Shown here: positions 14,216 to 36,393 of the stretch, one piece after another
Layout: each line of letters starts with the position of its first letter
How positions within the stretch are numbered: position 1 is the first letter of the stretch
Assembly: GCA_025920705.1 (NCBI GenBank)
Contig: JAPDLJ010000001.1
Location: 1 to 64,000, forward strand
Direction: 5' to 3'
DNA length: 64,000 nt
DNA from: Candidatus Jingweiarchaeum tengchongense
GTDB lineage: Archaea > Nanobdellota > Nanobdellia > Jingweiarchaeales > Jingweiarchaeaceae
Made by a program: the position numbers and the translations under genes
The notes under the pieces: generated by a model
Told to the model about the DNA's origin: nothing
Databases searched by the model: none
What the model saw: only the letters and a program-made list of their open reading frames with translations

Positions 14216-15040
14216 TTAACCTAAATATGACATTTTCACGTAAAAAGTTCTCGGAACTCTTTTTAGCACATGCTCAACCATTTTGTCATCGATTGGTCTT
14301 ATACCCTCATTTGCATAGAATCTACAAACTCGCTCGCAATTGACAAGTATCTCTCTTGGAATATATGAAGACAGGTGAAAAATCTTATTCAATGCTTCTT
14401 CGCTGAATGGGTTACTCTCTTCTTTGCTTTGCATTGAGTTTAAAATTCTCAGTTGGATCATTCTCGTTGCTTCATCACTCTGCATCGGTCTCAATGCATT
14501 TTCCCAAACAATTCTATTTCTAAACGCATCTTTAAAAGGTTTATGTGATTTTATCCGCTTCGTTGAAGCCATTATGATACTTGCACCTAGATGATCATGG
14601 AATGCTCTTAAAAAATGATAAACATTTTGATTGTTTACCAAATGTGCTTCATCAAGAAAAATGATTGGTCTTCTGTCGCCAAGCTTCATTTTTAAAAAAT
14701 TTAAGAATCCAATCCTCTCTGGTGTTCTTCTTAGAATAATATCTAGGATGTTTTGCTTACCGATCGTATTTGCAAACTCATATACTAGAGAATTCTCAGT
14801 ACTTATAACAGGATCAATGAATATCGTCGCATACTTTTTCTTGTCTAAAAGTTTTTGGAAATGTAAGAGTAATGAGCTCTTACCGCTACCAGGTGGTCCA
14901 AAAATGTTCATTGAATCTCCAGAAATTATAATTTCGTGAAGGTCTCTCTTTATGTCATCAAATCCAACAAAGATTTGAGGGTCAGCACTAATAATGAATG
15001 GATTGGATTTCCATCCATATCTAACGAACCATGTGTCCAT
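14216..15040 (-). CDS. AAA+ ATPase, ExeA/Orc-like
   Basis: This 274-residue ATPase opens with YGWKSNPFIISADPQIFVGF, the start typical of ExeA/GspA-like and Orc/Cdc6-related AAA+ proteins. Walker A is FGPPGSGKSSLL (about 47-56), Walker B is PIIFLDEAHL (about 125-132), sensor 1 is ASIIMASTKR, and a lid domain with IPREILVNCERVC follows. There is no C-terminal winged helix of normal Orc1/Cdc6 size, so an origin-binding role is doubtful. ExeA-type ATPases can energise assembly of envelope complexes. The gene is transcribed away from the giant surface-protein operon across a 176-bp intergenic region, so it may serve that locus; this is inference from position. Confidence 0.85.
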   Translation of the reverse strand: MDTWFVRYGWKSNPFIISADPQIFVGFDDIKRDLHEIIISGDSMNIFGPPGSGKSSLLLHFQKLLDKKKYATIFIDPVISTENSLVYEFANTIGKQNILDIILRRTPERIGFLNFLKMKLGDRRPIIFLDEAHLVNNQNVYHFLRAFHDHLGASIIMASTKRIKSHKPFKDAFRNRIVWENALRPMQSDEATRMIQLRILNSMQSKEESNPFSEEALNKIFHLSSYIPREILVNCERVCRFYANEGIRPIDDKMVEHVLKRVPRTFYVKMSYLG

Positions 15041-15216: not shown

Positions 15217-18200
15217 ATGGTCAACATGAAGAGAGATAAAGCTTTTTATGTAGTGTTAGTCTTAGTTCTTTTTATATTTCTTTCCATCTCATTCACTAAT
15301 CAAATGATAGCTCAAATTCTACTTCTATTGGTTTTATCTAGTTTTATCTTCATCAGAGTCAATGTTATTCCAAACAAAAAAGCAATTTCAAGAGTGGTGC
15401 TCTATTTAATTGTGATCATTTTTTTCGTTTTCTATCAGTTTTACTTCTCAAGGCTCATTGACGTTGTTTTTGCTGCCACTGTATGGAATTTTGTTTCTCC
15501 AACACCCACAAATAATACTTGCACCACGCAAGGACCAATAAATGCAACTGTGATCGATGGAAGTCCAAGTCTATGTAAGTTGTACGTAAGCCAAAATCCA
15601 GGTTCCGGCTGGAGTATACATGAAATGAGCTTGACACTAGGCTCACCAAACTATTGTTATAACGGCACTTGGTGGCAGAGTGTTAGTAATGGGAGATGGT
15701 ATTACAAGGTCAACATGACGGATGTAAATGGAGTCTCAAGCTTTTCTAACGGTGATTATGAAAGGACATTCGTTTTAGATACTGCAAATCCATCTGTGAC
15801 AGCGAATCCAACCAAATATCCACCTGGGCAAACAAGAGCCAAGAATGGTGATAATGTCACGTTCAATGTAACTGTTATTGATTCTACGATTGCTCCTTGT
15901 GGTGTAAAAAATGTAACCGTACACTTGAGTCTTGGATTTAATTGTACTCAAGGTGAAATTTTGAATTTAATAAAATATGGTGCAACGGATTATTACGTTG
16001 GGAATTGTACTGTAGATGCAACAAATGAGGGTACATATTACCTTCCTGTATATGCATATGATAATGTTGATCACTTGAATGATAGCGTACAGGTGACAGT
16101 CTCAGTAGATTATACGCCACCAACTGTAACAATAACATCTCCCACGAACACACAATACAATACGAGTAGTATAAACCTAACATTCACTGCTAATGATAAC
16201 ATAGCGTCAACGATGACTTGTCAGAGGACTTTGGACGGAGTAACAACATTGATTGGTGCAGTAAACAATAATACTGAAAATACGACAATAATGAACCTAG
16301 AACCTGGAGTACATCAAGTAAATGTAACTTGTTGGGATGATGCTTACAACAATGGAACTTCTTCAACGATCACATTTGGGGTATGGCGTTATATTTACGC
16401 GAATGTGACGCGGAATCCGGAAGCGCCTGCAAATTTATCAAGAGTTCCTGGTTGCTCAATACCAACTTCAATTACGTGGAATGTGACAGATATAAAAGAT
16501 GAGTTTGATAACCCAATTAATGGAACTCTCTTGAATGTAACATGGCGTGGAAACACGGTATGGAATGGGAACATTTACACGTGGTGGAACAAAAGTTGGC
16601 AGAGAAGGAAACCAATCACAATTTCAAATGTTAACACCTCGGATCTAATCGATTATCAAGTCGTAATGAACATTACATATGATAATGATATGCAAAGCGA
16701 TTTTTCAGACATCAGATTTACTTGGTATAATAAAACAAGTGGTGTAGAAGTAGAAATACCATATTGGATTGAAAACAAATCTGATTCTAATTGGGTTTAT
16801 GTTTGGGTCAAAATACCTATCATTTATGCTAGTTCAAATACCACAATTTATGTTTATTATAAAAATACCACTCTCGTAAGTTCAAAAAGTAACGGTAGAG
16901 ATACATTTGATTTATTTGATGATTGGGAAAGCGGGATTGTAAACACAAGTTATTGGACTACTGGTGGTAGTGTTTCACCATATTGGATCACTCACACATC
17001 AACAAAATACCAGGGAAGCTATTCTTCTGGTAATAATGATATTGGAGATTTACAGATATCATGGATTAAAAAAAGTATTAATCTTTTGATGCCTGGAAAA
17101 TTGGAATTCTATTGGTCAGTTTCTTCAGAATCTTGCTGTGACTTCCTTTATTATTGTATAGACAATGATGGTTGTACGAGAACTTCTGGTTATATAAGTA
17201 GAATTGCTGGTACGGTGGGCTGGACATTTGTGAATTATAACTTGACAGCTGGCACCCACAGTATAAAGTTCGCGTATGAGAAAGATATAAGCGTATCCTA
17301 TGGTTCGGATACTGGGTGGATTGATTTTGTGAAAGTCAGGAAATATGTTTATCCTGAACCGACTAGTTCCATTGGGACAGAAGAGCAAATAGAAAATTTA
17401 AATCTTTTACCACTAAGTGGGGTGTTTGATATTCCCAATGATAACGTTCTTGGAGAAAGTGATGATTTCTTAAACATTACGATCACAAAACCATATTACT
17501 TTGCTTACACAAACAATTCTTCTGATTATCATATACAGGGCGTCCTGAATCAAAGTGGTTCGTTGATCTCATGGACACCAAGTGGAAGTGCAATAGATAA
17601 TTTTGAACCTTCTATTGAAGGAGGACCATCAGTCAGTGCTAGTTATTTGATAAGGGATGATTTGAGTGTAACCTTAACAGAAAATACACATTATATAAAA
17701 ACAAATTATGGAGATTGGAATGCAAGTGATAATAATGCTGGTGATACAATTATACCGAATACCACATTTACTGGTATAAATAATTACTGTGGTACTGTCA
17801 CGTTCTCAAAGAGCTATCTCGTGCATGGAAAGATAAGTGATATATCCAGCATTATCTGGTCTCCTTCTGGGAATAATATAGATAGATTTTATGGTGGAAG
17901 TTATGGTGGTCCAGATGTAAGCTATGGTAGCTTGGTAGTGATTGACAATAAAGGTAATGTGGTAGCACCAACGAATTACTCAGAAAATAAAATTGGAGAT
18001 TGGAATGCAAGTGATAATAATGCTGGTGATGTGATAATATCAAATTTAAATATCACATCAAAGCTCGATGCTGGTAGTTGTGGTACATTAAATTGTTATT
18101 GGCACGGTTATGTGAATCAAACAAAGAGCTATACTGTCTGGGCAAATTTAACAATTAAGAGTGTGGCACCGCCAAATGCTACAATTGTCTATAGATCAAA

Positions 18201-21200
18201 TTGTAATACGCCTTATAATGTAACTTTAAGAGTAAACTTAACTGATGATAAGGGTAACTTGGTTTCGGGAGCGAATACAATTATATATCATCCAAGTGGT
18301 ACATGCAGCGTGAATGATGAGAATAATGGATATTATAATTGTACCTATGATCCAAGCGATACGATAGTGCCTGGGCTCTATACATGGACAGCAGAGGCAA
18401 GTAAAAATTATTATTATAATACTGGTAATGCAACACTTTTGTATTTGGAAATCAGAGGTTGTTCTAACATTAACATTACCCAGCCATTAAATACTTCTTC
18501 CTTTAATCGATCACAAACAATGGATATTAAGGTTAACATAACGGATGAATTCAATCAACCAGTAAGCGATGTAGGCGTTACTTGTGAGCTCACAAAAGCA
18601 AATGGGGTGAAAGTTTATCCAAATTGTATTTACAATCTTTCATCATATCTTTGGGAAGCTAATTACACATTTGCAAATGATGATCCGGTTGGAATTTGGT
18701 ATTTGAAAGTGAATGTAAGTGGAAGTTATTCTTACGCTGAGAAAATATACGAAATCACTTTGTTCGGAAAGTTGAATGTTACAAGTGTCTTAACAAAAGA
18801 TAAAGTAGATAGGGGTTCTGATTGGGGGTATGGTACGATAGCATTGTTGAATGCAAGTATCAATGATGAGAGTGGCCCAGTAAGTGATGTATATGTAAAA
18901 TTTTATGCAAATGATAATTTCATTGGTGAAAACACGACAGATAGTAGTGGAATTGCAAGATTGTACTGGGATCCAGATGATAATTTAAATGTGGGTGCAT
19001 ACAAGATCGAGGTGGAAGCGTACAAGACTTATTATTATAATGATACAAGTAAAAGTTTGAACAATTATACAGATGTTTATGGCAAGTTATTTGTCAGAAA
19101 TGTTTCATCACCGGTAAATGTTGATAGAAAAAATAATTATGGTTATGGTACAATTGCGATTCTTGAGGTAAATGTGAGTGATGATTTATATGTTCCAATA
19201 AATGCATCAACAGTAGAATTTTACATTAATACTAGTGTTGTGGGAACAAACACAAGTGGTGTGAATGGATATTATAAATATAACTGGGATCCAGATAACA
19301 ATCTAAATCCTGGAATTTATGTTTTCTATGCAAATGCAAGAGATGTGCAATACTATCACAATTATACAGATACTGTACCTAATAGTACAATTACTGTTTG
19401 GGGTAAATTAAACATTACTTCTTTCGGATTTACTGATAAAGAAATTTACAGGATTGGAGAATCAACAGTTCTAAGCGTAAATGTGAGTGATGAAAATGAT
19501 GTTGCTGTAAATAATGCAATAGTTTCATTCGTAAGAGATTCAAGTATCATAAATGTGACCAACACTACAAATGGTTATGCAAGTTACACTTATGATCCAA
19601 GCGATACGATAACGCCAAACAACTATACTATGTATGTAAATGTGAGCAAGCAGTACTATTACAATGATTCAAAGCAAGATTGGCTTTTAATAAAAGGCAA
19701 GATAAATTTAACTATCATTTCGCCAAACACAGGTCAGAAGTTCTATAGAAATAATACAGTACAATTAAATTCAAATGTGACAGATGAAAATAATGTTGAA
19801 GTCTCTCCTGATTGGTCTGAATGGAAGAAGATATTTCCCACGCAAGAAGTGATTTCAAATCAACCCGATTATGATTGGAATATTCCATACAACTATCCAA
19901 AAGGATTGCTTTCAATACAATTTAATGCAACTAAAATGTACTATGATATTGTAGGTGCAATTCCAAGTGTTGACATTACAATATGGTCTAAAGCAAATGT
20001 CACAATATTAAACTCTCCTCAAGATTTGAATAGGGGAAACAATATAACAATTGTTGCAAGGGTTTCAGATCATTTCACGAATGAGAACTTGGGTGGTTAC
20101 GATATTGGTTGGTTTGTGAATGATGTTAATATAGCAAATTACACAACTGCCCCTGATGGAACTTCTTCTTATTATTGGATAACGAATTGTTCATATGATG
20201 TTGGTGTGAATTGGATAAATGCTACGATTGGAAATGATACAAGTAATTACATTGATGCTAACATAGCAAACAGTAAAATAGATATCCACTTAATTGGAAA
20301 CCTATCCACATCAATCATTTCACCTCATCTGGATTCACTCTACCATATAAATGATGTAATACAATTAAATTCAAGTACAATTGATGATTGTAACAATTAT
20401 GTCATACCAGTTGTTACATGGAGAAATGAAACAGATGTCATTCAAAGTGGTATAAATGCGACATGGACGATTCCGTTGACCTACAATAAGGGACCAACAA
20501 ATATCACTATTTATGCGAATAAAAGTTATTATTATAATGCAACAAATTCGACACGGATAATCATATATCGCTGGGTAAACATCACGGACTTAAACCCAAT
20601 AAATGTTACTTATCCTGTTGGAACAATCATAAACTTTACATGTTTTGTTAGAGATGCAAATCTTTCACTAGGAATCGAGAATTATCCTGTAAACTTCTAT
20701 AAAAATGGAGTACTTCAGAATGTTAGTTATACAAATACAAGTGGTCTCGCACTTTGGATATGGAACACAACGAATGAACTAAGTAACAATTACACAATAA
20801 AATGTAATATTACGGACAATGCAACGCTTTATTTAAATAAGAGCCACCCATATGAGCAGCAAGGTAATATCACGATTGAAAGAAGATTGTGGATTATAAA
20901 CATCTCAGTTGATAACAGAACGATTTATAGAAATGATACTTGGGCAATATTAAACAATCTACCATATGCCACAAATATTACGGTCGAGGTCTGGGATGCG
21001 GCAATAAATCCTGCTTCAAATGTAATCGTACATTTCTTCAATTCGACAAATGAAATGGGTAATTGTACTACAAATTCAGATGGTAAGTGCAGTGTCATAT
21101 TTAATCCACCTGATACAATCATTGTACAAAATTACACAATTTTAATTAATGCAACAAAGATAGGTAATGATCCATCTTTCACTGAAAATACAACAATTGA

Positions 21201-24200
21201 AATATTGGGTGTCTTAAGGATAAATGCGAGTAATTACCCAACAGGGTTGGATGTAAATTATGAAAATGAGACGATAGAGGCAACGATAGAGCATGATATT
21301 TTAATTACAGATGTGATTTTGAACATTACACTCCCAAATAGTACTGTTATCTCTTCCCAAATGCAATCAATGGGAAATAATAATTATGTATTAAATTATA
21401 CACCTAAAATAAATGGTACGCATTCTTACTTTGTTTATGCGATTGACGCATCTAACTTTTTGAATCAAAGTTCAACCGCTTATTTCACTGCTTATAGAAA
21501 TACAACACTTTCGACAAAGCATGCACCACAATTGATCACGATCACGAACATGACATACTTTAATACTCAGCAATTACAAGTAAGTTTGAATGTAACTAAC
21601 CTGGGCCCATCAAGTGCTTATTACACAAACCTAAGTGTACAAACACCAAGTGGTTGGATCTCTAATTACAATGGTAATTGTGGTTTAATAAAAGATGGAG
21701 AATCATGCCTAAGAACTGTTGATATTACAGTACCTTCAAATACTTCACCCGGTATTTATTATCTAAATTCAAATACAACATGGATGAATCCTGATAATAC
21801 ATATAGTTACATTACGAATGTTACAACAGTGAATGTAACTTCAAATCCATTGTTAAACATCTCACAGAATAGTATTGGGGTTGTTGTCCAGCACAATTCT
21901 TATAATATAACAATATTCACAGTTCAATCAATAGGCAATGACAATTTAAGTAACATTCAGTTTGATTGTTATACTGGAATTGTTTGTACAAATTTTAGTG
22001 TCTCTTTCTCACCTTCAAGTATTAGCTTTCTAGGAAGAGGAAATTCACAAGATGTAAATGTAAATGTAAGTGTGCCGCTTGGATTTGCAATGGGTAATTA
22101 TACTGGAATTATAAGGGCGAATGCGACAAGTAGTGTTTGTAATCCAAGTAGTAATTGTTGGGATGAAGTGGAGATAAATATAGAAGTACCACCATCATCG
22201 ACTTGGTATGCTGAAGAGAAGAACTTTTCATTAGCAAGAGTAAATACATCATCTACTGGATTTATTGGTAATATAACAATAAACAATACTGGAAACACAC
22301 CAATACAATTCACATGGGAAGCTTATGGAAACATTTCTTACATGCTCATCGGTGAAAATATCACAGTAGAAAATCAAACTGTAAAAAACATGACAATTAG
22401 TTATTCCATACCCCATACCCTAAACGATACAAACAATACACCAGCATTCTACGCTGGTGGAATAAGGATCATTGCAATAAATGGAGTTCCACAATCGATG
22501 AATTTCTCTGTTAACTTTAGCGTTTATGATACGTTTGCACCAAACATAAACAACTTTAGCTTAGATTCAAATTTCATTGATATAAATTATGGTGTACTTG
22601 GCATTACAGCAAATGTGACAGATAACGTTAAAGTACAATCTGTGTACGTGGAATTTAGTAGACCTGGGAAAAAGTTTAGCAATTTGATGACAAATGTATA
22701 CGATGACATTTATTACTATTCTTGTAAAGCAGATGGAAGTTGTATCGATGCACTTGGAATATGGAACATAAAAATTTCGACATTTGATACTGCAAATAAT
22801 CCTGAAAATCCACCCCCAGGCTATAATGTGAACAGTAGTGGGTATTTACAAGTAGAAGTTGTTGGAAATACAAGTGTAGATATCCTAACAATCCCTGTAA
22901 TAAATGTATCAAATATAACACAAGGTTACGTTTATGAGTTTAATATAACTCCAATATTCAACAACACATTCAAGGGAACTGCATTTTATTCAAATTTGTC
23001 ATTGAATATTAGTTACCCACTCACAATTGATAATGTAAGTACAAAAACAATTAATTTTGGTAATGTTTCAAGATACAGTGCAGTAAATCAGACACTTCTA
23101 GTAAAAATACCGTCTGGAACAGTACCTGGAACTTATCTAATTAACTACAACGCTAGTTGGATGAATGCAGATAATACTCATAATTCAAACATAAACCAAA
23201 CAACAATAAATGTGCTATCAAATCCATTACTGAATATCGTCGAAGATTATATTTTGACTACAATTGCACATGGTTCTTCTAATGCAACGACCTTCAATCT
23301 AAGTTCATATGGTAATGACAATTTAAGTAACATTGAGATAACATGTGTTTCAGGCACTGTATGTACCAATCCTTGCTTTGATGTTCTGTTTGATAAAAAT
23401 TACTTAAACTTGAGCGCTGGAAACAGTTCAATTGTTACAGTAAGTGTGAATGTGGGTTTGGGATGCAGTCCTGGTAATTATACTGGAATTATAAGGGCGA
23501 ATGCGACGAGTAGTGTTTGTAATCCAAGTAGTAATTGTTGGGATGAAGTGGAGATAAATGTAAGTGTCTTAACTTCACCAACATGGGGAATAACACCAAA
23601 TTACCTTTCTCAGATTGTTTATGATAACTCAAGTGGTAATTTAATTGACATATTGGTAAACAATACTGGTAATGTACAAATTAATTTATCAATCACACTT
23701 TCTGGTAATGCAACGACGCCAACACAATTAATTAATGTCACAGAAACAGATGTAAGCGTAGATAAGGTAAGTACAAAAAATGTGACGGTTACTTATGATA
23801 TTCCCAACAATCAAATACCGGGCATATATCAAGCAATTATAACCTTCACAAATACATCTTCTCCAGCAAATCCAACACAAGTAAACGTCACAATTTATAT
23901 TGATGTGAGGGATCCGTATTCTCCTACAATTTCAAATCCGAACCTATCAAAAACAGCACTTGAGGCAAACTTCGAATCTCTTACAATAAATGCAACCATT
24001 ACTGATAATGTTGCAATCTCAGAAGCTTGGGTAAATATCACATTACCAAATATGAGCAATAATATTATTTTTATGAACAATATTGGAGATAATCTATACA
24101 GCACTACATACAAACCACCAATTGGTGGAAGTTACGGTGTAACAATTTATGCAAATGATACATCAAATAACATTGCTTCTATGTATGCAGGCTCGTTTAA

Positions 24201-27200
24201 TGTAATTGGTAAAACAACTGGTAATTTGAAACAAACACCAACGAGTATTAGTTTTAACAACATCACGTACTTACAAGGAGCTCAATTTGATGTTCACTTG
24301 AATATCACGAATGTTGGGAATACAACAATGCGCTACTTGAACCTGACAGTTTTGGTACCTCAAGATGAATATGACTGTGAGAATGGGAAATGCAAGTGGA
24401 ACTTCACATGTAGTGGTCTTAATTGTAATGGCAGTGGAATAAGCTGTGGTAATTTAACGATAAATGAAAGTTGTGATGGTAATTTTACAATATTTGTACC
24501 AAAAGGTACAAGCGGTGGTACTACAAATAATATATTCGGAGCCGCATTTTGGCTCGATCCAGATCTTACAATTGGAAACACAACCAATTATACATCTGTG
24601 ACAGTTGCATCGAATCCTGTTATCAATGTCACCCCATTGGTGGTTAGTAACAGTATTGAACAAGGAAAAATAAGTGTGCTTGGTTCAATTAATATTAGCT
24701 CATATGGTAATTCACCACTTTATACAATGAATTATACAAGTGTTGGGGGAAATTTACCTTATGCTTGGTTATCATTCGCACCAGAGATCGTAAATATACC
24801 TGTTGGTGTAAGAAGAAATTTAGACATAAGTGTAAGTGTTCCCTTTGGTCAAAATCCTGGTATCTACAACACGACACTCATTGTAAACGCAACTGGTTCC
24901 GCCCCATTCTGTGATCCAAGTTCAAGTTATTACAATCCTAATAGTAAGTGTTGGGAATTTGTGAATTTGAGTTTAAATGTACCTGAAAATTGGTCCTGGA
25001 GCAGGTATCCAAGCTCAGATTACATCATTGTTCCAATCACCACGAGTGGACAAATAAACATCACGGTAAACAATACTGGAAACATGGATATTAACTTTGA
25101 AGTTCAATACAGTGGTGATACTTCAATACTTGATCCATTCAGACCAACTTCTTTATTTTCACCGAAGCAAAGCAGTAACTTATTACAAGTGGGTTACAAT
25201 GGTACGATTTCAGGACTTTATAATGTGTTAATAAAATTGGTGAATCTATCCATCCCTTCACCATATCCAAAAGAGCAAACAACAAATATCACATTGAATG
25301 TAACAAATGTTCCTCCTAATATCCAAAATGTGAGTATTGCACCTAGTATCTTGGATGTGAATTATCAAAAAGTGAACATAAGTGCTGTGGTGACGCACCC
25401 AGCATCAAGTGTATATGTCTGGGCTAATATAACAAAACCAGACAATTCAATCACAACAATTCCAATGTCTGGTGTTGGAAATACTTACAGTGCTACCTAC
25501 ACACCGGAACAGGAAGGGATGTATGGTGTTACAATTTATGCGAATGAAAGTAGGGATGGTCTAATGAGTTCTTCTGGAATATATAATTTCTTAGCGTTTG
25601 CGACCACATCACTTGAACTCATTTCGATTCCAAACGAAACAGCAGTTTACAAGATAACACAGTACGATGGAAACATCACAAACTTGAACATTACAGTAAG
25701 AAATACGGGTATGGCAACTGCATACAATACTGTAGTCTCATTACAAGCTCCTCAAGGTTGGACTTTAATTCCAACAATGATAAATTACGGAAATATCACA
25801 AGAAATTCTGCAAATTCAACAATTGTAACAATTACGATACCTAAAGGTACACCACCCGGTAATTATTATGTGAATTTAAATTTGAGCTGGATGAATCCAA
25901 ATAATGTTGTTTCAACTGTCACTTCAAATGTAAGATTTGAAGTTGCACAAAATCCGTTCGCTAACTTTACAACAAAGGAAGCGAGTTCAGTAACATTGGA
26001 TGGGTACTCGAATTATACTATATTAACCTTAAATTCAACGGGTAACATAGATGCAACTGACATTTCAATTTCATGCGTATCTGGACCATGTTCAAATTTG
26101 AGTACCACGATTTCGCCTCCATTTATCTCTTATCTTGCAATTGGAAATACAAGAGATATAAATATAAGCTTCAGCGTTCCAGTTGGATATCCAGCTGGAA
26201 CTCATGTGATTGGTATAAACGCATTCACTCCTATCAACTCAGATGCTGCGAATATCTCGATCACCGTACCACCAAATTACTCATGGAATAGGACACCTAG
26301 TTCTATATTTGCAAGGGTTGGGGTGAGTGAAAACTACACAACGACTGAAATCGGGAGGATAGAGGTAGATAACCTAGGAAACATTGAAATGTTCTTTAAT
26401 ATAACAATCGATAACTCAACATACATCTATCCGAATGTAACGGTCTTGCAAGTACCTAGACAATCAAAGGGTGTTGTTGGTGTGAGGACAGTCGTACCGT
26501 CTGAAAGAGGAACGCACAATGCAACAATTACGATTATAAACAACCTGACAAAAGAGGAAATGAATACAACCGTGAATCTGGAAGTAACAGAACTTAGGGT
26601 GAATGTGATAAGTCCAATTTCAAATGAACTTAGGCCTGTGAAGTTGAATGATACGCTGGAAGTTTTTGCGAATGTAACTTATCAAGGAGTACCATTAACA
26701 GATGGTGTGAATTGGACGATTGAGTTGAGCAATGCAATATATGGTATTACGAAGCAATGTGATGTAAATAACGCAACTTATCAAACAGACCGTTGGAGAA
26801 TTACATGTATAATTCCTGAGACAAGAGATGCAACTTTATATGATTTGGTTGTAAGCGCATATGCATATGATCCATCAATCAACACGATTTCATCAAGTAC
26901 AAGAACAAATGCAATATTTTATGAAGATATCACACCACCCAAATTTGTTGGCGTAAACATCAGTTCTGTGCAACCAAATGAAATTGCTGTTATTAAAGTG
27001 AATGTAACTGATAACGTTGCTGTTTCAGATGCTTGGGTAGAAATAATGTATCCAAATTACAGTACTACAAGTGCAAATCTCACTTATATTGAAAATTTGT
27101 GGCAAATGAGTTTTAATGACACATCACAGATAGGAGATTATGAACTAAAAATCTACGCAAAAGATAATTCGAATAATCTGAATCAAACATATAGTTGGTT

Positions 27201-29805
27201 TGGTTCGTACTACCCGATGAGATTTTATGGGGAAGCGAAGGATGTCGCTGGCAATCCTTATTACATCGAATTTAATTTCTACAGACCTGGAAAAACAGAT
27301 CTACTTTTCAATGTCACAAGCAATCAAACAGGAATCTATGATAAGAACATTAGTGCTAGATTGTATGATATTGAAGTAAAAGCATTTGGAAATAAAATTA
27401 AGTTATATGGTACCAATCTGACAAAGTTCAACAATAGTGGTCTATACTCACCTTTAATATTGGATGATATTGCTGGTGCTTATATTGGCTATGGTGCACT
27501 TAGAGGATTATATGTTGATATAATAAACACAATTTATTACGTTAGTGGTAGTTTAATGATCGATTTTGCTGGAATACCCATCCATTCAATAAATTGGGTT
27601 GGAGTGTATAAGTGTAATAGCTTTGATAGATACAACAAAAAATGTAATCCTAGCGGTAATATTACAAATCCTTGGAATAGGATTGGTGGAGCAATCATTG
27701 GATATACAGCAAATATAAACTTGAGCTCATTTTCAGCATACGCTGCTGCTGAATATATTTGTGGAAATGGAATTTGTGAAAGTGGTACTGGTGAGAGTAG
27801 TGCAAATTGTCCAATTGATTGTCCAACCGAAGTTCCAACACCACCAGGTGGTGGTCCTGGAGCACCGGTGATACCAACACCAACAGTAAATCTAACAAAC
27901 ATCACAGAGGCACTTGTCAATATCACAGAGAAGATTGAGGAACTTATACCAATTCCATCAATGACTGTGATCACAAAATCAATATATGTTGTTTTGTATC
28001 CTGGTGAATATAAAATAGAGTCGATTGATATCACAAACAATTTGAATAGGAAGATAAAAGTAAATATTTCAGTCGAAGGTGCTGCATGGGAATTTGTACA
28101 ATTCGAGAAAACTGAATTCGAAATTGATCCGAGAAGAATTGAGACGATTAATATAAAATTGTATGCATTACCAACTGCACTACCTGGCATTTACACAGGT
28201 AAACTAATTGTTAAAACTGAAAACTTGACAAGCATCATTCCAATTACAATAAAAGTTGAGCTCGCAAGGGAAGCACTTCTTGATATCAAAATTGAGACAA
28301 TAACAAAGGTAATTAAACCAGACGAGCCACTACAATACCGTGTATCATTGTATAATATGGGTACTACAAAGAAGGTGGATGTAACGATAAATTACTCGAT
28401 TAGAAGTATTGAATTTAATAGAACAATATTGAGTCAGCAGGAAACACTAGCGATAGAGACTTCGCTCTCATTCAGAAGATCAATAAAACTACCAAACGAC
28501 ACAAAGCCTGGCAAATTCATCATAGAAGCAGTCGCGTATTATGACAATAGAACTGCAAGTTCCATCGACACATTTGATATTGCTGTAACTCCGTTCGTCG
28601 TTAATATATTCTGGCAGATTTTCACATCACCCTTCACTTATGCAATCATTGCAATTGTCATTGCGATTTATTATGGCAGAAAGTACTATTTGATGTGGCT
28701 CGCAAAGAAGAAGGCAGCAGCTAGATACATCTTCCCTGTTAGCTTCAATAAATTACCAAAGGCAGGTAGAAGATCCATACTCGTTGGTAAAATTGCTGAA
28801 ACAGAATATCCTGCTTATTTTGACATAGACAACCTGACAATGCACGTTGTAGATGCTGGAGGTACTGGTGCTGGAAAATCAGTTTCAGGAATGATAATTG
28901 CTGAAGAACTGTTGAAGAAGGGCATTCCTGTAATCGTATTTGATCCAACACTGCAATGGACTGGTTTTATAAAACCTTGTAGAGATAAGAAGATGCTGGA
29001 GAAATATCCAAAATTTGGATTAAAAACGAGTGATGCGAGGGCATTTCCAACGAACATAATTGTAGTCACAGACCCTGAGATGGATATTAACATAAAGGAA
29101 ATTGCAGCCAGGAAAGGTGAAATAACGGTGTTTTGTTTGAGTAAGCTCACGCCTGAGCAGTTGGATAAATTTGTAAGAAGGACGATAGATGCAATATTTG
29201 ATGTTAGTTGGAGTGAATCAAAGGAATTGAGATTATTAGTTGTTTACGATGAGGTGCATAGATTACTGCCGAAATACGGTGGAAAGGGTGGTTACACCGC
29301 GCTTGAGAGGGGATGTAGAGAATTTAGGAAATGGGGAATTGGATTGTTCATGATATCGCAGGTATTGATGGACTTTAGAGGAGCGATAAGGGCAAACATT
29401 GGGACGGAGATACAGCTAAGGACGAAATACGAAGGTGATATTGGAAGAGTGAAACAGAAATATGGTCCAGAGTATTCAGCAACACTTCCAAAATTAAGAA
29501 TAGGTAGTGCAATGGTGCAGAATCCGGATTACAACGATGGTAAACCTTATTTCATTGAATTTAGACCATTATTACATGATACATTCAGGATAACAAATGA
29601 AGAATTAGAAACGTATAAGAAATTACAAGAATCAATTAGTGAAATAGAGAAAAAAATTAAAGATTTGAAGGATAAAAAGATAGATACATATGATATAGAG
29701 ATAGAATTGGGACTTGCAAAAGAAAAATTGAAACAAGGTTTGACACATATGGCCGAAACTTATATTGAATCGATGAAAGAAAAATTAAAGCGTTTGGAGA
29801 AGTGA
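15217..29805 (+). CDS. Giant surface protein (4862 aa) fused to cytoplasmic HerA/VirB4-like ATPase
   Basis: One uninterrupted frame of 14.6 kb. Residues 9-78 hold three hydrophobic helices. Outside: Ig-like domains; a DUF2341 domain (about 454-565, WWNKSWQRRKPITISN) with a concanavalin-like part to 727; about nine Ig-like repeats of 95-100 residues (about 980-2095) ending in YYYN; four supermodules of 430-470 residues (2095-3998) of NEW3/CARDB-like beta-domains; CGNGICESG (about 4182); a Pro-rich hinge; two more beta-domains. One helix (about 4463-4490) crosses the membrane. The last 370 residues are an ATPase: Walker A DAGGTGAGKSVSG (about 4547), Walker B LLVVYDEVHRLLP (about 4676), motor-type FMISQVL, then a coiled tail. 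N-x-S/T sites are very dense. Domain families are recognised; the role (contact, transfer or anchoring) is inferred. GTGA overlap couples the next gene. Confidence 0.93.
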   Translation: MVNMKRDKAFYVVLVLVLFIFLSISFTNQMIAQILLLLVLSSFIFIRVNVIPNKKAISRVVLYLIVIIFFVFYQFYFSRLIDVVFAATVWNFVSPTPTNNTCTTQGPINATVIDGSPSLCKLYVSQNPGSGWSIHEMSLTLGSPNYCYNGTWWQSVSNGRWYYKVNMTDVNGVSSFSNGDYERTFVLDTANPSVTANPTKYPPGQTRAKNGDNVTFNVTVIDSTIAPCGVKNVTVHLSLGFNCTQGEILNLIKYGATDYYVGNCTVDATNEGTYYLPVYAYDNVDHLNDSVQVTVSVDYTPPTVTITSPTNTQYNTSSINLTFTANDNIASTMTCQRTLDGVTTLIGAVNNNTENTTIMNLEPGVHQVNVTCWDDAYNNGTSSTITFGVWRYIYANVTRNPEAPANLSRVPGCSIPTSITWNVTDIKDEFDNPINGTLLNVTWRGNTVWNGNIYTWWNKSWQRRKPITISNVNTSDLIDYQVVMNITYDNDMQSDFSDIRFTWYNKTSGVEVEIPYWIENKSDSNWVYVWVKIPIIYASSNTTIYVYYKNTTLVSSKSNGRDTFDLFDDWESGIVNTSYWTTGGSVSPYWITHTSTKYQGSYSSGNNDIGDLQISWIKKSINLLMPGKLEFYWSVSSESCCDFLYYCIDNDGCTRTSGYISRIAGTVGWTFVNYNLTAGTHSIKFAYEKDISVSYGSDTGWIDFVKVRKYVYPEPTSSIGTEEQIENLNLLPLSGVFDIPNDNVLGESDDFLNITITKPYYFAYTNNSSDYHIQGVLNQSGSLISWTPSGSAIDNFEPSIEGGPSVSASYLIRDDLSVTLTENTHYIKTNYGDWNASDNNAGDTIIPNTTFTGINNYCGTVTFSKSYLVHGKISDISSIIWSPSGNNIDRFYGGSYGGPDVSYGSLVVIDNKGNVVAPTNYSENKIGDWNASDNNAGDVIISNLNITSKLDAGSCGTLNCYWHGYVNQTKSYTVWANLTIKSVAPPNATIVYRSNCNTPYNVTLRVNLTDDKGNLVSGANTIIYHPSGTCSVNDENNGYYNCTYDPSDTIVPGLYTWTAEASKNYYYNTGNATLLYLEIRGCSNINITQPLNTSSFNRSQTMDIKVNITDEFNQPVSDVGVTCELTKANGVKVYPNCIYNLSSYLWEANYTFANDDPVGIWYLKVNVSGSYSYAEKIYEITLFGKLNVTSVLTKDKVDRGSDWGYGTIALLNASINDESGPVSDVYVKFYANDNFIGENTTDSSGIARLYWDPDDNLNVGAYKIEVEAYKTYYYNDTSKSLNNYTDVYGKLFVRNVSSPVNVDRKNNYGYGTIAILEVNVSDDLYVPINASTVEFYINTSVVGTNTSGVNGYYKYNWDPDNNLNPGIYVFYANARDVQYYHNYTDTVPNSTITVWGKLNITSFGFTDKEIYRIGESTVLSVNVSDENDVAVNNAIVSFVRDSSIINVTNTTNGYASYTYDPSDTITPNNYTMYVNVSKQYYYNDSKQDWLLIKGKINLTIISPNTGQKFYRNNTVQLNSNVTDENNVEVSPDWSEWKKIFPTQEVISNQPDYDWNIPYNYPKGLLSIQFNATKMYYDIVGAIPSVDITIWSKANVTILNSPQDLNRGNNITIVARVSDHFTNENLGGYDIGWFVNDVNIANYTTAPDGTSSYYWITNCSYDVGVNWINATIGNDTSNYIDANIANSKIDIHLIGNLSTSIISPHLDSLYHINDVIQLNSSTIDDCNNYVIPVVTWRNETDVIQSGINATWTIPLTYNKGPTNITIYANKSYYYNATNSTRIIIYRWVNITDLNPINVTYPVGTIINFTCFVRDANLSLGIENYPVNFYKNGVLQNVSYTNTSGLALWIWNTTNELSNNYTIKCNITDNATLYLNKSHPYEQQGNITIERRLWIINISVDNRTIYRNDTWAILNNLPYATNITVEVWDAAINPASNVIVHFFNSTNEMGNCTTNSDGKCSVIFNPPDTIIVQNYTILINATKIGNDPSFTENTTIEILGVLRINASNYPTGLDVNYENETIEATIEHDILITDVILNITLPNSTVISSQMQSMGNNNYVLNYTPKINGTHSYFVYAIDASNFLNQSSTAYFTAYRNTTLSTKHAPQLITITNMTYFNTQQLQVSLNVTNLGPSSAYYTNLSVQTPSGWISNYNGNCGLIKDGESCLRTVDITVPSNTSPGIYYLNSNTTWMNPDNTYSYITNVTTVNVTSNPLLNISQNSIGVVVQHNSYNITIFTVQSIGNDNLSNIQFDCYTGIVCTNFSVSFSPSSISFLGRGNSQDVNVNVSVPLGFAMGNYTGIIRANATSSVCNPSSNCWDEVEINIEVPPSSTWYAEEKNFSLARVNTSSTGFIGNITINNTGNTPIQFTWEAYGNISYMLIGENITVENQTVKNMTISYSIPHTLNDTNNTPAFYAGGIRIIAINGVPQSMNFSVNFSVYDTFAPNINNFSLDSNFIDINYGVLGITANVTDNVKVQSVYVEFSRPGKKFSNLMTNVYDDIYYYSCKADGSCIDALGIWNIKISTFDTANNPENPPPGYNVNSSGYLQVEVVGNTSVDILTIPVINVSNITQGYVYEFNITPIFNNTFKGTAFYSNLSLNISYPLTIDNVSTKTINFGNVSRYSAVNQTLLVKIPSGTVPGTYLINYNASWMNADNTHNSNINQTTINVLSNPLLNIVEDYILTTIAHGSSNATTFNLSSYGNDNLSNIEITCVSGTVCTNPCFDVLFDKNYLNLSAGNSSIVTVSVNVGLGCSPGNYTGIIRANATSSVCNPSSNCWDEVEINVSVLTSPTWGITPNYLSQIVYDNSSGNLIDILVNNTGNVQINLSITLSGNATTPTQLINVTETDVSVDKVSTKNVTVTYDIPNNQIPGIYQAIITFTNTSSPANPTQVNVTIYIDVRDPYSPTISNPNLSKTALEANFESLTINATITDNVAISEAWVNITLPNMSNNIIFMNNIGDNLYSTTYKPPIGGSYGVTIYANDTSNNIASMYAGSFNVIGKTTGNLKQTPTSISFNNITYLQGAQFDVHLNITNVGNTTMRYLNLTVLVPQDEYDCENGKCKWNFTCSGLNCNGSGISCGNLTINESCDGNFTIFVPKGTSGGTTNNIFGAAFWLDPDLTIGNTTNYTSVTVASNPVINVTPLVVSNSIEQGKISVLGSINISSYGNSPLYTMNYTSVGGNLPYAWLSFAPEIVNIPVGVRRNLDISVSVPFGQNPGIYNTTLIVNATGSAPFCDPSSSYYNPNSKCWEFVNLSLNVPENWSWSRYPSSDYIIVPITTSGQINITVNNTGNMDINFEVQYSGDTSILDPFRPTSLFSPKQSSNLLQVGYNGTISGLYNVLIKLVNLSIPSPYPKEQTTNITLNVTNVPPNIQNVSIAPSILDVNYQKVNISAVVTHPASSVYVWANITKPDNSITTIPMSGVGNTYSATYTPEQEGMYGVTIYANESRDGLMSSSGIYNFLAFATTSLELISIPNETAVYKITQYDGNITNLNITVRNTGMATAYNTVVSLQAPQGWTLIPTMINYGNITRNSANSTIVTITIPKGTPPGNYYVNLNLSWMNPNNVVSTVTSNVRFEVAQNPFANFTTKEASSVTLDGYSNYTILTLNSTGNIDATDISISCVSGPCSNLSTTISPPFISYLAIGNTRDINISFSVPVGYPAGTHVIGINAFTPINSDAANISITVPPNYSWNRTPSSIFARVGVSENYTTTEIGRIEVDNLGNIEMFFNITIDNSTYIYPNVTVLQVPRQSKGVVGVRTVVPSERGTHNATITIINNLTKEEMNTTVNLEVTELRVNVISPISNELRPVKLNDTLEVFANVTYQGVPLTDGVNWTIELSNAIYGITKQCDVNNATYQTDRWRITCIIPETRDATLYDLVVSAYAYDPSINTISSSTRTNAIFYEDITPPKFVGVNISSVQPNEIAVIKVNVTDNVAVSDAWVEIMYPNYSTTSANLTYIENLWQMSFNDTSQIGDYELKIYAKDNSNNLNQTYSWFGSYYPMRFYGEAKDVAGNPYYIEFNFYRPGKTDLLFNVTSNQTGIYDKNISARLYDIEVKAFGNKIKLYGTNLTKFNNSGLYSPLILDDIAGAYIGYGALRGLYVDIINTIYYVSGSLMIDFAGIPIHSINWVGVYKCNSFDRYNKKCNPSGNITNPWNRIGGAIIGYTANINLSSFSAYAAAEYICGNGICESGTGESSANCPIDCPTEVPTPPGGGPGAPVIPTPTVNLTNITEALVNITEKIEELIPIPSMTVITKSIYVVLYPGEYKIESIDITNNLNRKIKVNISVEGAAWEFVQFEKTEFEIDPRRIETINIKLYALPTALPGIYTGKLIVKTENLTSIIPITIKVELAREALLDIKIETITKVIKPDEPLQYRVSLYNMGTTKKVDVTINYSIRSIEFNRTILSQQETLAIETSLSFRRSIKLPNDTKPGKFIIEAVAYYDNRTASSIDTFDIAVTPFVVNIFWQIFTSPFTYAIIAIVIAIYYGRKYYLMWLAKKKAAARYIFPVSFNKLPKAGRRSILVGKIAETEYPAYFDIDNLTMHVVDAGGTGAGKSVSGMIIAEELLKKGIPVIVFDPTLQWTGFIKPCRDKKMLEKYPKFGLKTSDARAFPTNIIVVTDPEMDINIKEIAARKGEITVFCLSKLTPEQLDKFVRRTIDAIFDVSWSESKELRLLVVYDEVHRLLPKYGGKGGYTALERGCREFRKWGIGLFMISQVLMDFRGAIRANIGTEIQLRTKYEGDIGRVKQKYGPEYSATLPKLRIGSAMVQNPDYNDGKPYFIEFRPLLHDTFRITNEELETYKKLQESISEIEKKIKDLKDKKIDTYDIEIELGLAKEKLKQGLTHMAETYIESMKEKLKRLEK
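17710..17745 (+). repeat. 36-bp exact direct repeat, copy 1 (inside giant gene)
   Basis: Identical to 17995-18030, 285 bp (95 codons) downstream in the same frame. Encodes GDWNASDNNAGD in two neighbouring similar domains, consistent with a domain duplication. Confidence 0.9.
17995..18030 (+). repeat. 36-bp exact direct repeat, copy 2 (inside giant gene)
   Basis: Second copy of the repeat at 17710-17745. The flanks of both copies also encode similar protein (SISTW-like strands then FYGGSYGGPD versus FEPSIEGGPS), so the repeat unit is a whole domain. Confidence 0.9.
22093..22179 (+). repeat. 87-bp near-identical direct repeat, copy 1 (inside giant gene)
   Basis: Matches 23473-23559 at 86 of 87 bases (A/G difference in gacaag versus gacgag). 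Encodes GNYTGIIRANATSSVCNPSS and the following NCWDEVEIN. Flanking protein is only moderately similar, so this short DNA identity stands out. Confidence 0.92.
23473..23559 (+). repeat. 87-bp near-identical direct repeat, copy 2 (inside giant gene)
   Basis: Second copy, 1380 bp (460 codons) after the first, which gives the period of the supermodule. Recent gene conversion or strong constraint on this segment could explain the identity. Confidence 0.92.
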
Positions 29806-29810
29806 TAAGG

Positions 29811-31232
29811 ATGGAATTAAATTTACCTTTTTTGAAGAGGGAGGAAAAGGGAGAAAGCGAAGAGGAGAAAAGGAAAGATAGGGATAATAATAAAAAGGAG
29901 GAGGAAAAGAAGAAGAAATTGACTGAAGCAAAGACTGTGGGTGAGATGGCTGCAATCTTGCAGGAAATTCCAGTGGAAGATGAGGAAGTGAAAGAGGAAG
30001 AGAAAAGGGAAGAAAAAGCTGGCATAGAAATTGATCCAAAGCAATTGTTTATAGAAATTGAAAAAATGAAGGTTGAGATTGATGGAATAAAAGAAGATAA
30101 GACAAGAATTGAGGAAAAAATTGATAGATTCGTTGAGAGTATTGGTGAGCTTAGAAGTCTGTTATCACAAAGGGAAGTGTCATTCAAGGAACAGGAAATA
30201 AAGCTCAATAAATTAGTTGAAATTGTGGGTGAAATAGACCCAACAAAGTATGGCGTAGAGCTAAAAAAAATTGAAAAGGATGTTTCTATTCTACAAGCAA
30301 GAATAGAAAAATTGGAAAGAATAAGTGTTGATTTAGTTAAAGACTTACAATCGCTACGGGATATCTTGGATAAAGTGAAGGACATCTCTACTATAATGGG
30401 AATGAATAGGGAATTAAGTGAAAAATTAGCGAAGATTGAGGATATTGGAAGTAAAGTGGAAAGAGATACAAATAAAGTTGAAAAAATGTACGCTGAAATT
30501 GATAAAAAAATTATGGATATACCGATGCTAAAAGAAAAAAATGAGAAGTTGGATGGACTTTTAAAGGAGCTTTTGATGAGTGTTGATGAAATTAAAATCA
30601 GATTAGATGCTTGTATAAGTAAAGATGACCTTGATTCATTAAGAGAAAGTATGAGGGAAGAAACGAGAGTACAAGTCGAAGATTTAAGGAAAGAGATTGA
30701 GGAAATGAAAATATCAAAACCTGTCGAAGAAAAAATCGAAGAGATTAAGAAATTTCCAAGTGAAAGTGAGATCGAGGAATTAAAGAGGGAGAGGGAAGAA
30801 ATAATCAGGTTTTTGAGCGCGCTTGAAGATGAATACAGGGAAGCCACAATCTCTGAGAAGAGTTATCAAGAAGCAAAAGAAAAAAACACGGTAAGATTGC
30901 ATCAAATTGAAAAGAGATTGAAGGAAATAAAGGAGATGGAAGAACAGATGGAAATTGAGAAGCAAATATTTACTGCGAAAAAAGCAATTGATGAGATAAA
31001 TCGGGTGAGTGAAGAGTTAAATAAGAAACTTACTGATATTGAGAAAAAATTAACAAGTGTTGATTTACTTGTATCTGACATCCAGAACATTAAAAATAAA
31101 TTAACGCAGTTGGAGGAAAGCGATAAAAAAATTATAAGTGATAGCACAGCATTATCAAATCAATTTAATCAAATAAAATCGATCTTTGAAAAAAGACTAA
31201 AAGAAATGTCAAAAATTGTGGAAGAGTTATAG
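29811..31232 (+). CDS. Long coiled-coil protein of giant-surface-protein operon
   Basis: The protein of about 473 residues is almost wholly helical and charged, with no membrane segment, and so is cytoplasmic. A Glu/Lys-rich head (about 1-75) is followed by heptad-repeat coiled coil from about 85 to the end, with a few breaks (EIDPTKYG, KFPSESE). A segment near residues 330-370 (ALEDEYREATISEKSYQEAK, then IEKRLKEI) resembles the C-terminus of the next gene's product. The start is ATG 29811; GTG 29802 overlapping the upstream stop, with GGAG just before it, is an equal alternative. Likely a partner or scaffold for the cytoplasmic parts of the two surface proteins; FlaD/SMC-like resemblance is only structural. 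Exact function unknown. Confidence 0.85.
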   Translation: MELNLPFLKREEKGESEEEKRKDRDNNKKEEEKKKKLTEAKTVGEMAAILQEIPVEDEEVKEEEKREEKAGIEIDPKQLFIEIEKMKVEIDGIKEDKTRIEEKIDRFVESIGELRSLLSQREVSFKEQEIKLNKLVEIVGEIDPTKYGVELKKIEKDVSILQARIEKLERISVDLVKDLQSLRDILDKVKDISTIMGMNRELSEKLAKIEDIGSKVERDTNKVEKMYAEIDKKIMDIPMLKEKNEKLDGLLKELLMSVDEIKIRLDACISKDDLDSLRESMREETRVQVEDLRKEIEEMKISKPVEEKIEEIKKFPSESEIEELKREREEIIRFLSALEDEYREATISEKSYQEAKEKNTVRLHQIEKRLKEIKEMEEQMEIEKQIFTAKKAIDEINRVSEELNKKLTDIEKKLTSVDLLVSDIQNIKNKLTQLEESDKKIISDSTALSNQFNQIKSIFEKRLKEMSKIVEEL

Positions 31233-31241
31233 TGATTTTTA

Positions 31242-34200
31242 ATGCTAAGATCATGGAAAAGATTGGTTATATTAGCGATATGGTGCTTATTCTTAATTAG
31301 TTTTTCAAAGGCTGAATGGTGGAATACTTCATTTCATTACAGAGTACCAGTTAATATAAGTACTGGAAACTATAACAGGACTGAATGGCCGATTGAGATA
31401 AGAATAAACTTTACACAATTAATTTATGATCTAAAGGGTAGATATGAGATATTTGATAATAATTCTATTCGTGTCATAGAATATGATTCAGATGGTTATG
31501 TAATAAATGATAACAACGGACTTGGAATCGTCTCACAATTTGACGAAGATGAAGATTACGATGCAACTTATAATGCTGTTGGTGAATTGGTCTTTCTATT
31601 AAATGGAACAACACCTGCTAATACCACCAGGTACTTTTACATTTATTTTGATACAATGGAAAATCAAAAACAACCTCCAAGCTACCAGACAAATTTGACA
31701 TATGTGTGGGATGATGAAGAATTTAATGTGAATAACTCAATTTACAGACTTTGGATTGATACGCTTAGAAACGATAATACATCCGGAATATATAAAGTAA
31801 ATTTTACAGATGGTAGACTGCTCACCGAAATTGCGCCAAGCGGAAGAACGCTTGAGTATGTTAGTTATTGGAATTCAACAAACCAATTCATGTATAACCT
31901 TTCCCACCAAATGAAAATTTTGTATGCAGGACCGGTAAGAATTGTTGTAGAACAGTTGGGAAATGAATCACTTTGGAACTCTAATGTTCAAACAAACCAA
32001 ACAAAATTAAGGAAGAAGTATGTCTTCTATGAGAAAAATCAGTGGATAAGGATAAATGAAACATTAAGTAATGTGCATACGACAGATATAGATAGGTGTT
32101 CGAACGATCCAACATATATACCTGGTGCTCCTGGAACAAGTGATTATATATACGCACTTGCGATTGACGCGAGGAGAGGAAATTTCTATGGAAATGCATA
32201 CGTAATAAATGATTGGGTATCTGTCTTTAATTCAAGTACTGCTGTTGGTATGGGTGTAATACTTTTATATAATTCAACACCAAACTATTTTGTAGACTAT
32301 AGTGACACTTGGGGTAGGATTGGAGTACAGTTGGACAATACAACAATTCCAATTAATGAAAGCATTTCTTTCTCTGCTATTTTGTATTTTAATAACATTT
32401 CTTCGCATAGCCCAATTGAAGAATTGAGGAATAGAGTATTTGCTCCTGTTTCCATTTCAATGGGCAATGCAAGCGCATGGTATATAAACATCACAACGAT
32501 AACTAATCACGACGTTTACAATCGAAAAGAAATGGTAAGTATAATTGCAAATGTCACTTCTGATCCTTGGAACCTTGTAAACTATGTAAATGCTACGCTT
32601 GATTTAAATTCTCTTTTAATGCAACTTACTTATGCTGGATTTAAGTATTATACTGGTAATTACACGTTTGCAAACAACGATACGACGGGTGTTTGGAACA
32701 TTACAACAATTGCTTACGATTCATCTTGGCAATTTTTAAATCAATCTTCAAAATTGATAAACCTAACAGATATTTACAACATGAACTTGACGATAAGAAA
32801 CAAGTATGGACCGATCTCAAGAAAGTTGATTACTGATGTGGGTATAAAAAATTATAGAAATGATACAAACATTGTTGGTATTCCGCAGTCAAATTTCAGT
32901 TGTAATTTAACAATTTTAGAATTTTCTGAAATCGGAAATGGCTTATACAACCTAAATTTTACTGCTCCAATTGAAATCGGTAATTATACATTATTCTGTA
33001 ATATAAATTTCAACGGAAACGTTGGCAATTCAACTGACAGCTATATTACAGAAGAAAATAAGACGCAAGTGAGTATTGAACTTTTACCAGACAATATCAC
33101 AGCCACAAATATCACTTCAACGAATTCACAGATTTTTGAGATGAATTTAACAGCAATTAACCTCAGAAATGGTACGGCATACAAAGCTAACATCACGATT
33201 TCTCTACCAACAAATTGGAGTGCAACGCAAACATTTTTCAATTGTGGTGATATTGCACCGAGTAACAATTGCACTATATATTTCAATGTGACGATTCCAA
33301 GTAAGACCCATTCTGGAAATTATGTAGTAAATGCGACGATTGCTTGGATGAATCCTGATGGATCAATAAATCAAACGAGTGACTTTTCGAATGTAAATGT
33401 TACATCGAACATTACTCTCTATATTCCTGAAAATGAACTAATTGCAGTGGTTGAGCATGGGAGAAATATGCAGATTGGAAACTTTACCTTAAATTCGCTT
33501 GGCAATGATCCTGTATCAAATATTAGTTTTTCATATCAAATTGCTGAAAACATATCCATCATCTTCACACCAAGTGATATTTCTTATTTGGATTCTGGAG
33601 AATCTATTGTTGTATTTGTAAACGTTTCTGTTCCGGCTGGCTACGCACCTGGAAATTACATAGGAAACATCACAATAGATACCGAAAACGATGGAAGCAA
33701 AACATTGTTATTGAACATAGATGTGCCATTGAACAGAACTTGGACAAGGATCCCAAGCGCATGTTATAAATATATAGCTGCACCTGTGGGTTTTGCATGC
33801 AATATCACAATAAATAACACAGGAAACGCTGAATTAAATTTTACCATACATCCAAATGCGACTTCCGATTCAATGGTAAATCAAACATGGCCGAATGTGA
33901 CGAGCATCTTCTTAGAAAAACAGACTTCTTATGTGCTGCCAATCTTTTATAATATCACTGGATTAAACAATGGAACATTTCAAACGACATATACAATAAC
34001 AGCAAACCAATCGGATGCAATTCCACAAAATTTAACAACGATCGTTAATATCACAATTTCACTTGGTCCTGAAATAAACATCACAATTTATCCAAGTTTA
34101 ACAGAACAGATGAGTGATATCGTAATAAATGCGAGTTTATATGATAGGTCTTATACTGGGATATCTTGGGTAAAAATAAATGTGACGAGACCCAATGGAA

Positions 34201-36380: not shown

Positions 36381-36383
36381 TTT

Positions 36384-36389
36384 AGGTGA
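36384..36389 (+). promoter_or_regulatory. Ribosome binding site deciding the minD start
   Basis: aggtga just after the stop of the upstream gene lies 4 nt before ATG 36394. It favours this start over TTG at 36352, which would overlap the preceding gene and add residues outside the ParA/MinD family. Confidence 0.75.
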
Positions 36390-36393
36390 GCAA

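Follow-up and report, generated by a model that had tools for sequence, protein, structure and literature searches.

A SPEARE-like giant protein of a DPANN archaeon combines an Ig-like ectodomain and a HerA-type ATPase in one chain and may act as a contact-linked ring motor

Introduction

How host-dependent archaea and their hosts exchange material is an open question, and a locus of Candidatus Jingweiarchaeum tengchongense poses it in a particular form: what could be done by a single protein chain that carries thousands of residues outside the cell and a motor-type ATPase inside it? The organism is presumably host dependent, by analogy with DPANN biology. The locus lies within a stretch of 64,000 nucleotides, analyzed here as a whole (the window), from a metagenome-type genome of 1.12 Mb in 40 contigs that is 92.5% complete. 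An earlier note on this DNA had held it plausible that the chain is part of a previously undescribed trans-envelope machine. That novelty could not be upheld, since SPEARE giants with the same order of parts were published in 2019 (PMC6642349) and 2023 (PMC10266531), and the one-chain ectodomain-helix-ATPase design is already known from these proteins of Nanohaloarchaeota.

Hamm and colleagues described nanohaloarchaeal SPEARE proteins of up to 8,553 residues with a C-terminal helix and a conserved cytoplasmic domain, then taken as a type III restriction enzyme, reported a similar domain in Woesearchaeota, Aenigmarchaeota, Micrarchaeota, and Altiarchaeales, and showed SPEARE synthesis by proteomics in Ca. 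Nha. antarcticus (PMC6642349). Reva and colleagues found giants of 9,409 and 8,880 residues with Ig arrays, a helix, a VirB4/TraG-like ATPase, and a terminal coiled coil, noted that a VirB4 gene adjoins the giant, and proposed that they serve as secretion "straws" (PMC10266531). Cryo-electron tomography of a giant-bearing symbiont revealed 9- to 11-nm bridges and filament-like densities at host contacts, and host DNA showed an elevated level of symbiont-type methylation (PMC11001535). The Nanohaloarchaeota are closely related to the Aenigmatarchaeota (PMC9765267). What is new with respect to this literature is an invariant core of ∼620 residues, an unnamed conserved coiled-coil gene downstream of the ATPase gene together with a MinD-like gene, the occurrence of active and dead copies, and an affinity of the giant's ATPase to HerA/CedD rather than to VirB4.

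Results

Architecture and topology of the giant protein

The giant gene occupies positions 15217 to 29805 on the forward strand, the strand of all window features below unless stated otherwise, as a single ATG-started frame of 4,862 codons with no internal stop, in agreement with the continuous 14.6-kb frame of the earlier note. The approximately 4,400 beta-domain residues that it had placed outside the cell correspond to an ectodomain of 4,389 residues (residues 79 to 4467; positions 15451 to 28617) with Ig-like Pfam domains. Its claim of one late membrane helix stood in part: the helix is present at residues 4468 to 4486 (28618 to 28674), followed by a K/R-rich stretch, but it is not the sole one, as hydropathy and charge bias indicate three more at residues 9 to 27, 30 to 48, and 60 to 78 (15241 to 15450).

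The distribution of K/R residues obeys the positive-inside rule, with three before helix 1, three between helices 2 and 3, six directly after the late helix, and none directly before it. The ectodomain contains 256 N-X-S/T glycosylation sequons, 2.5 times the 101 ± 8.2 of composition-matched shuffles, and the 376 cytoplasmic residues after the late helix contain a single one. Charge bias and sequon excess, together with hydropathy, thus place the long part outside and the ATPase inside, on opposite sides of the membrane.

Pfam matches in the ectodomain comprise DUF2341 (residues 495 to 582; 16699 to 16962; E value, 1.8e-15), NPCBM_assoc (NEW3), Big_7, MG2/MG4-like, and other Ig-like domains, one of the several NEW3 domains spanning residues 3485 to 3558 (25669 to 25890). 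Residues 1 to 4333 gave no laminin-G match in Pfam up to an E value of 1. Two juxtamembrane Ig-like domains (27943 to 28581), delimited by alignment A2 and an AlphaFold model, belong to the core conserved across the family. Directly upstream of the giant gene lies a divergently transcribed gene for an AAA_22/ATPase_2-type ATPase (14216 to 15040, reverse strand).

A recurrent family with an invariant core

The search for relatives among archaeal proteins showed that the last 620 residues of the giant, comprising the two Ig-like domains, the helix, and the ATPase, align across 78 loci, mostly with 33 to 58% identity to the window protein (alignment A2). The 88 extracted frames share a constant plan in which the ATPase follows the helix, except for truncated frames and a small number of unusual copies; wherever helix and ATPase could both be placed, nearly all spacings were 33 to 50 residues. 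With an intact frame and a junction that recurs in 78 loci, the covalent linkage of ectodomain, helix, and ATPase stands. A metagenome-type genome in 40 contigs could in principle hold an assembly chimera or an annotation artifact uniting two genes; since the same fusion is found in many independent genomes with a constant helix-to-ATPase spacing, we regard this explanation as extremely improbable. An origin from a mobile element was also considered and rejected, as a pattern scan of IMG/VR gave no relative and plasmids gave only distant DUF87 proteins with ∼26% identity.

The ectodomains of the family vary in length from ∼220 to more than 11,500 residues. The shortest full members, of ∼690 to 830 residues, have little outside beyond the two core Ig-like domains, and all sequence N-terminal of the core is a variable extension. 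When members with an ATPase starting after residue 1,800 were counted as giants, at least three changes between giant and short forms were needed on a quick, arbitrarily rooted tree of the core.

The ATPase is present in 66 of 371 genomes (57 of 259 genera) of the window's own phylum and in 54 of 156 Aenigmatarchaeota genomes, the latter with frames of up to 11,262 residues. These frequencies were taken from genome searches instead of a narrow peptide-pattern scan of the collection, which returned only 3 loci. The source genome itself holds two further copies, of 12,055 residues (contig 23; ATPase 69% identical) and 1,095 residues (contig 34; 50%). The longer paralog (C23:5724-41891, reverse strand; loci L008 to L010) carries the same C-terminal ATPase, exceeds the 9,409-residue record cited for cultivated archaea (PMC10266531), and has a weak winged-helix match (HTH_24; E value, 5e-4) ahead of its first membrane helix.

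Other genes of this genome deserve mention. Two genes upstream of the 12,055-residue paralog is a gene for a 415-residue exported protein with laminin-G (L010:4215-5459, reverse strand), and near the paralog are small exported or membrane-anchored surface proteins with no clear Pfam identity (L010:7802-14043; C23, ∼47.8 to 54.0 kb). Contig C1 encodes, at ∼64 to 74 kb, a protein of 3,456 residues with Ig-like domains, an N-terminal helix, and few sequons that lacks a motor (L138:26-10396, reverse strand). Contig C6 (L013; 13.8 kb), with a 224-residue P-loop ATPase, an HU-like gene, and unknown genes, is possibly a virus or plasmid.

Affinity and active site of the ATPase

The ATPase covers residues 4528 to 4859 (28798 to 29793), where DUF87/HerA_C score above the Pfam cutoffs, and the chain stops three residues past the end of the match. 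An AlphaFold model of the core, computed from the 78-row alignment, reached a mean pLDDT of 94.3 and shows two beta-sandwich domains followed by a helix of 30 residues, a RecA-like ATPase, and a short C-terminal helical bundle. Foldseek matched this model to Sulfolobus HerA (4d2i; E value, 3.5e-13) and other HerA proteins, and the outer part to Ig/Fn3 tandems. A PDB profile search likewise returned HerA proteins, with FtsK marginally behind, and VirB4 was absent among the listed matches of either search. Among NCBIfam profiles, CedD was the best for the window protein and matched 78 of 78 members, followed by HerA, TraC, and TraD, the last two matching most members; the CedD score of the window protein is 38.9 bits against an equivalog cutoff of 600, and all four profiles remain far below their cutoffs. 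On the strength of the Foldseek, PDB, and NCBIfam matches, the ATPase is best described as a family of its own within the FtsK-HerA superfamily, nearer to HerA/CedD than to VirB4, and the HerA affinity that the earlier note had suggested is borne out. Pfam ResIII is matched by 55 of the 78 members, which would explain why the SPEARE tail was once labeled as type III restriction.

The motifs named in the earlier note were all located: Walker A, GGTGAGKS (residues 4548 to 4555; 28858 to 28881), Walker B, VVYDEVH (residues 4675 to 4681; 29239 to 29259), and an SQ motif (residues 4714 and 4715). Lys4554 is conserved in 78 of 78 members, Asp4678 in 77, and the catalytic Glu4679 in 72. Arg4704 (29326 to 29328), invariant in all 78, aligns with the arginine of the HerA EGRK motif and is probably the trans-acting arginine. 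Walker A, Walker B, and this arginine are intact in 72 of the 78 members and in 59 of 59 Aenigmatarchaeota copies.

Active and dead copies in the same genomes

The six remaining members have lost the catalytic glutamate by E-to-G/S substitution (YDGIH, YDSVH, or similar in place of YDEVH) and form one clade of proteins of 1,418 to 1,702 residues. Every one of the six genomes with a dead copy also holds a short (∼690 to 780 residues) member of the active clade. The two are direct tandem neighbors in G206, G023, and G172 and one gene apart in G293 (tandem or near-tandem loci L060, L077, L126, and L080), and they sit on different contigs in G014 and G279 (L118/L078 and L094/L058). Chance would give this co-occurrence with a probability of 8e-8 if the genomes were independent, and their kinship makes the true figure larger. 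Because dead copies always occur with a short active copy in the same genome, rings of mixed subunits are implied, and the simplest reading would be a multisubunit ring able to accommodate both active and inactive subunits.

Neighboring genes

The giant gene overlaps by 4 bp the gene of a cytoplasmic coiled-coil protein of 476 residues (29802 to 31232), a member of a conserved unnamed family. Nine base pairs past the latter begins the gene for a second Ig/NEW3 surface protein of 1,712 residues with a C-terminal membrane helix and a charged cytoplasmic tail (31242 to 36380), which is in turn overlapped by 29 bp by the gene for a MinD-like ATPase of 250 residues (36352 to 37104; TIGR01969; E value, 6.4e-63). 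From this spacing and these overlaps we infer a four-gene operon.

In the fetched loci, the coiled-coil family counts 56 members, most of them downstream of the ATPase gene at a distance of one or two genes. Its gene was found in the fetched stretch of 50 of 59 Aenigmatarchaeota copies, and four of the nine misses had no downstream DNA. A chance match of charged helices was rejected, as the profile scores 0 on unrelated charged open reading frames and even on the window's own other coiled coil (37099 to 38190). An identity as an archaellum accessory (FlaC-like) or other known protein was also rejected, 30 members giving no consistent Pfam family, and AlphaFold predicted long helices only (pLDDT of 73). 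Coiled-coil genes also follow immediately after the gene of the 12,055-residue paralog, and a MinD gene lies nearby. Members of a ∼1,300-residue subtype usually have a two-helix surface protein of ∼1,000 residues instead, and upstream there is often also a small ribbon-helix-helix-like gene. Homology between the core and the two-helix surface protein frequently found upstream was dismissed, since they share only a weak Ig-level match with a probability of 10%. In several giant loci the coiled-coil gene is followed by a conserved gene of ∼300 residues with a weak Rep3_C match (L008:2653-3600 and L051:5167-6072).

Profile searches of the 92.5% complete genome found neither a VirB6/TrbL channel, a profile that CedA-type archaeal channels may escape, nor the VirB4 N-terminal domain PF03135, and no second VirB4-type gene adjoins the giant gene. 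Seven T2SSE-type ATPase matches in the genome point to the parallel presence of type IV filament machinery.

Discussion

Our preferred reading, which we consider quite possible without rating it as probable, is that this SPEARE-like giant of a DPANN archaeon is a contact-linked ring motor, with arm and HerA-type translocase in one chain. The tandem Ig-like domains would form an arm by which the protein extends to another cell, presumably the host, and attaches to it, and the tail would assemble with five other subunits into a HerA-type, ATP-driven ring beneath the membrane, held by the dedicated cytoplasmic coiled-coil protein and perhaps positioned by the co-encoded MinD. Every arm would be welded to one translocase subunit, so that contact site and motor would be a single object, and the coupling of ATP-driven work to outside contact envisaged in the earlier note would be a plausible idea. 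The motor would most likely thread a polymer across the contact zone; DNA is a first guess by kinship, and the direction of transport is likewise presumed.

In favor of such a ring motor are the intact active site, HerA as the nearest relative in both fold and sequence, CedD as the best NCBIfam profile, and the active/dead pairs, which are as expected of mixed multisubunit rings. The coiled-coil gene family downstream across two phyla, the constant spacing between helix and ATPase, and a core folded at high confidence point the same way, and a nanohaloarchaeal SPEARE protein is made (PMC6642349) and contact bridges occur in a giant-bearing species (PMC11001535). Against it, CedD/HerA scores lie far under the family cutoffs (∼39 of 600 bits), and no pore component was identified, given that VirB6/TrbL and the VirB4 N-domain were both undetected in the genome. 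Proteomics of a SPEARE protein also recovered its ectodomain and its cytoplasmic part from separate gel fractions, which may mean that the chain is cleaved (PMC6642349).

The last point bears on an alternative that is compatible with the other readings, namely cleavage near the membrane after export, which would leave arm and motor separate and let the fusion fix only their stoichiometry. Ectodomain peptides of the Ca. Nha. antarcticus protein came from above 315 kDa, and membrane and cytoplasmic peptides only from below it, but the authors also allow for bead-beating damage (PMC6642349). The two juxtamembrane Ig domains are moreover conserved with the ATPase as a unit, although a cut further out is possible, and we find cleavage somewhat doubtful. 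Secretion of effectors, in which the ring would pass proteins into the host, the role suggested for the nanohaloarchaeal giants, draws on that published proposal and the second VirB4 gene that neighbors the giant in those archaea (PMC10266531), on the host DNA methylation and bridges (PMC11001535), and on the TraC/TraD profiles that match most members. The window gene, however, has no such second gene beside it, PF03135 and a type IV secretion channel were not found in its genome, and the PDB and Foldseek searches relate its ATPase to HerA and do not list any VirB4 match; effector secretion appears unlikely to us.

A nontranslocating ATPase, serving as a base for oligomerization and remodeling by which adhesin arms are clustered, put under tension, retracted, or recycled, would fit the lack of a detected pore partner, and a coiled-coil partner and MinD would suit positioning or clustering. 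One clade without the catalytic glutamate still keeps the architecture, but each of its dead copies is accompanied in its genome by an active relative, and the active site is kept in 72 of 78 and 59 of 59 copies, which leaves this base, like effector secretion, an unlikely alternative.

Returning to the contact-linked ring motor, a broader version, about which we are rather skeptical, would be a DPANN-wide trans-envelope machine defined by the invariant core and the coiled-coil partner, with mixed rings and arms as parts of a contact-coupled translocase. Joined to it, and sharing that doubt, is the idea that long-armed, sometimes catalytically dead subunits could stand beside short active ones within the same mixed-ring machine.

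The published giants, with 6,000 to 9,400 residues, are hard to handle. Members of ∼690 to 830 residues, with a coiled-coil partner and natural dead partners, bring the motor within reach of in vitro work, and with partners so defined, its oligomeric state, stimulation by DNA or protein, and transport direction become testable. The availability of active and dead-motor versions of a widespread two-part module makes the mechanism itself testable, and core and partner together offer markers by which this machine can be recognized in genomes of two archaeal phyla, most of whose members are uncultured.

Among known systems, HerA (4d2i), a DNA end-resection translocase, shares the ATPase fold, the Walker motifs, and the EGRK-type arginine with the window ATPase. 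HerA is soluble, whereas the latter comes after Ig domains and a membrane helix; no HAS barrel is evident before its Walker A, the model having only a few strands between helix and Walker A, and no NurA partner was recognized among the genes adjoining the giant gene. CedD and CedB, the DNA-import ATPases of Sulfolobales, are similarly membrane tethered and HerA/VirB4-like, but CedD has no giant ectodomain and the Ced N-domains are VirB4-like, those of the window protein Ig-like. VirB4, TraG, and TrwB of type IV secretion systems are also membrane-linked motors of the FtsK-HerA superfamily, yet they belong to systems whose VirB6/TrbL and VirB4 N-domain components the genome does not show.

The closest comparison is with the SPEARE giants (NAR1_1133, AOV94740.1, SVXNc_0300, and BNXNv_0298). 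These belong to Nanohaloarchaeota and the window giant to a different phylum; its chain has DUF2341 instead of the laminin-G described in 2019, and compared with the 2023 giants, its coiled coil is encoded by a gene of its own that overlaps the giant gene, instead of forming the tip of the chain, no VirB4 is adjacent, and MinD is part of the gene cluster. Both kinds nevertheless come from reduced DPANN genomes and place thousands of residues of tandem Ig/adhesion domains outside, a helix near the C terminus, and a P-loop motor ATPase in the cytoplasm, and the window giant would work like the SPEARE giants, beside which it is set on the basis of their published descriptions.
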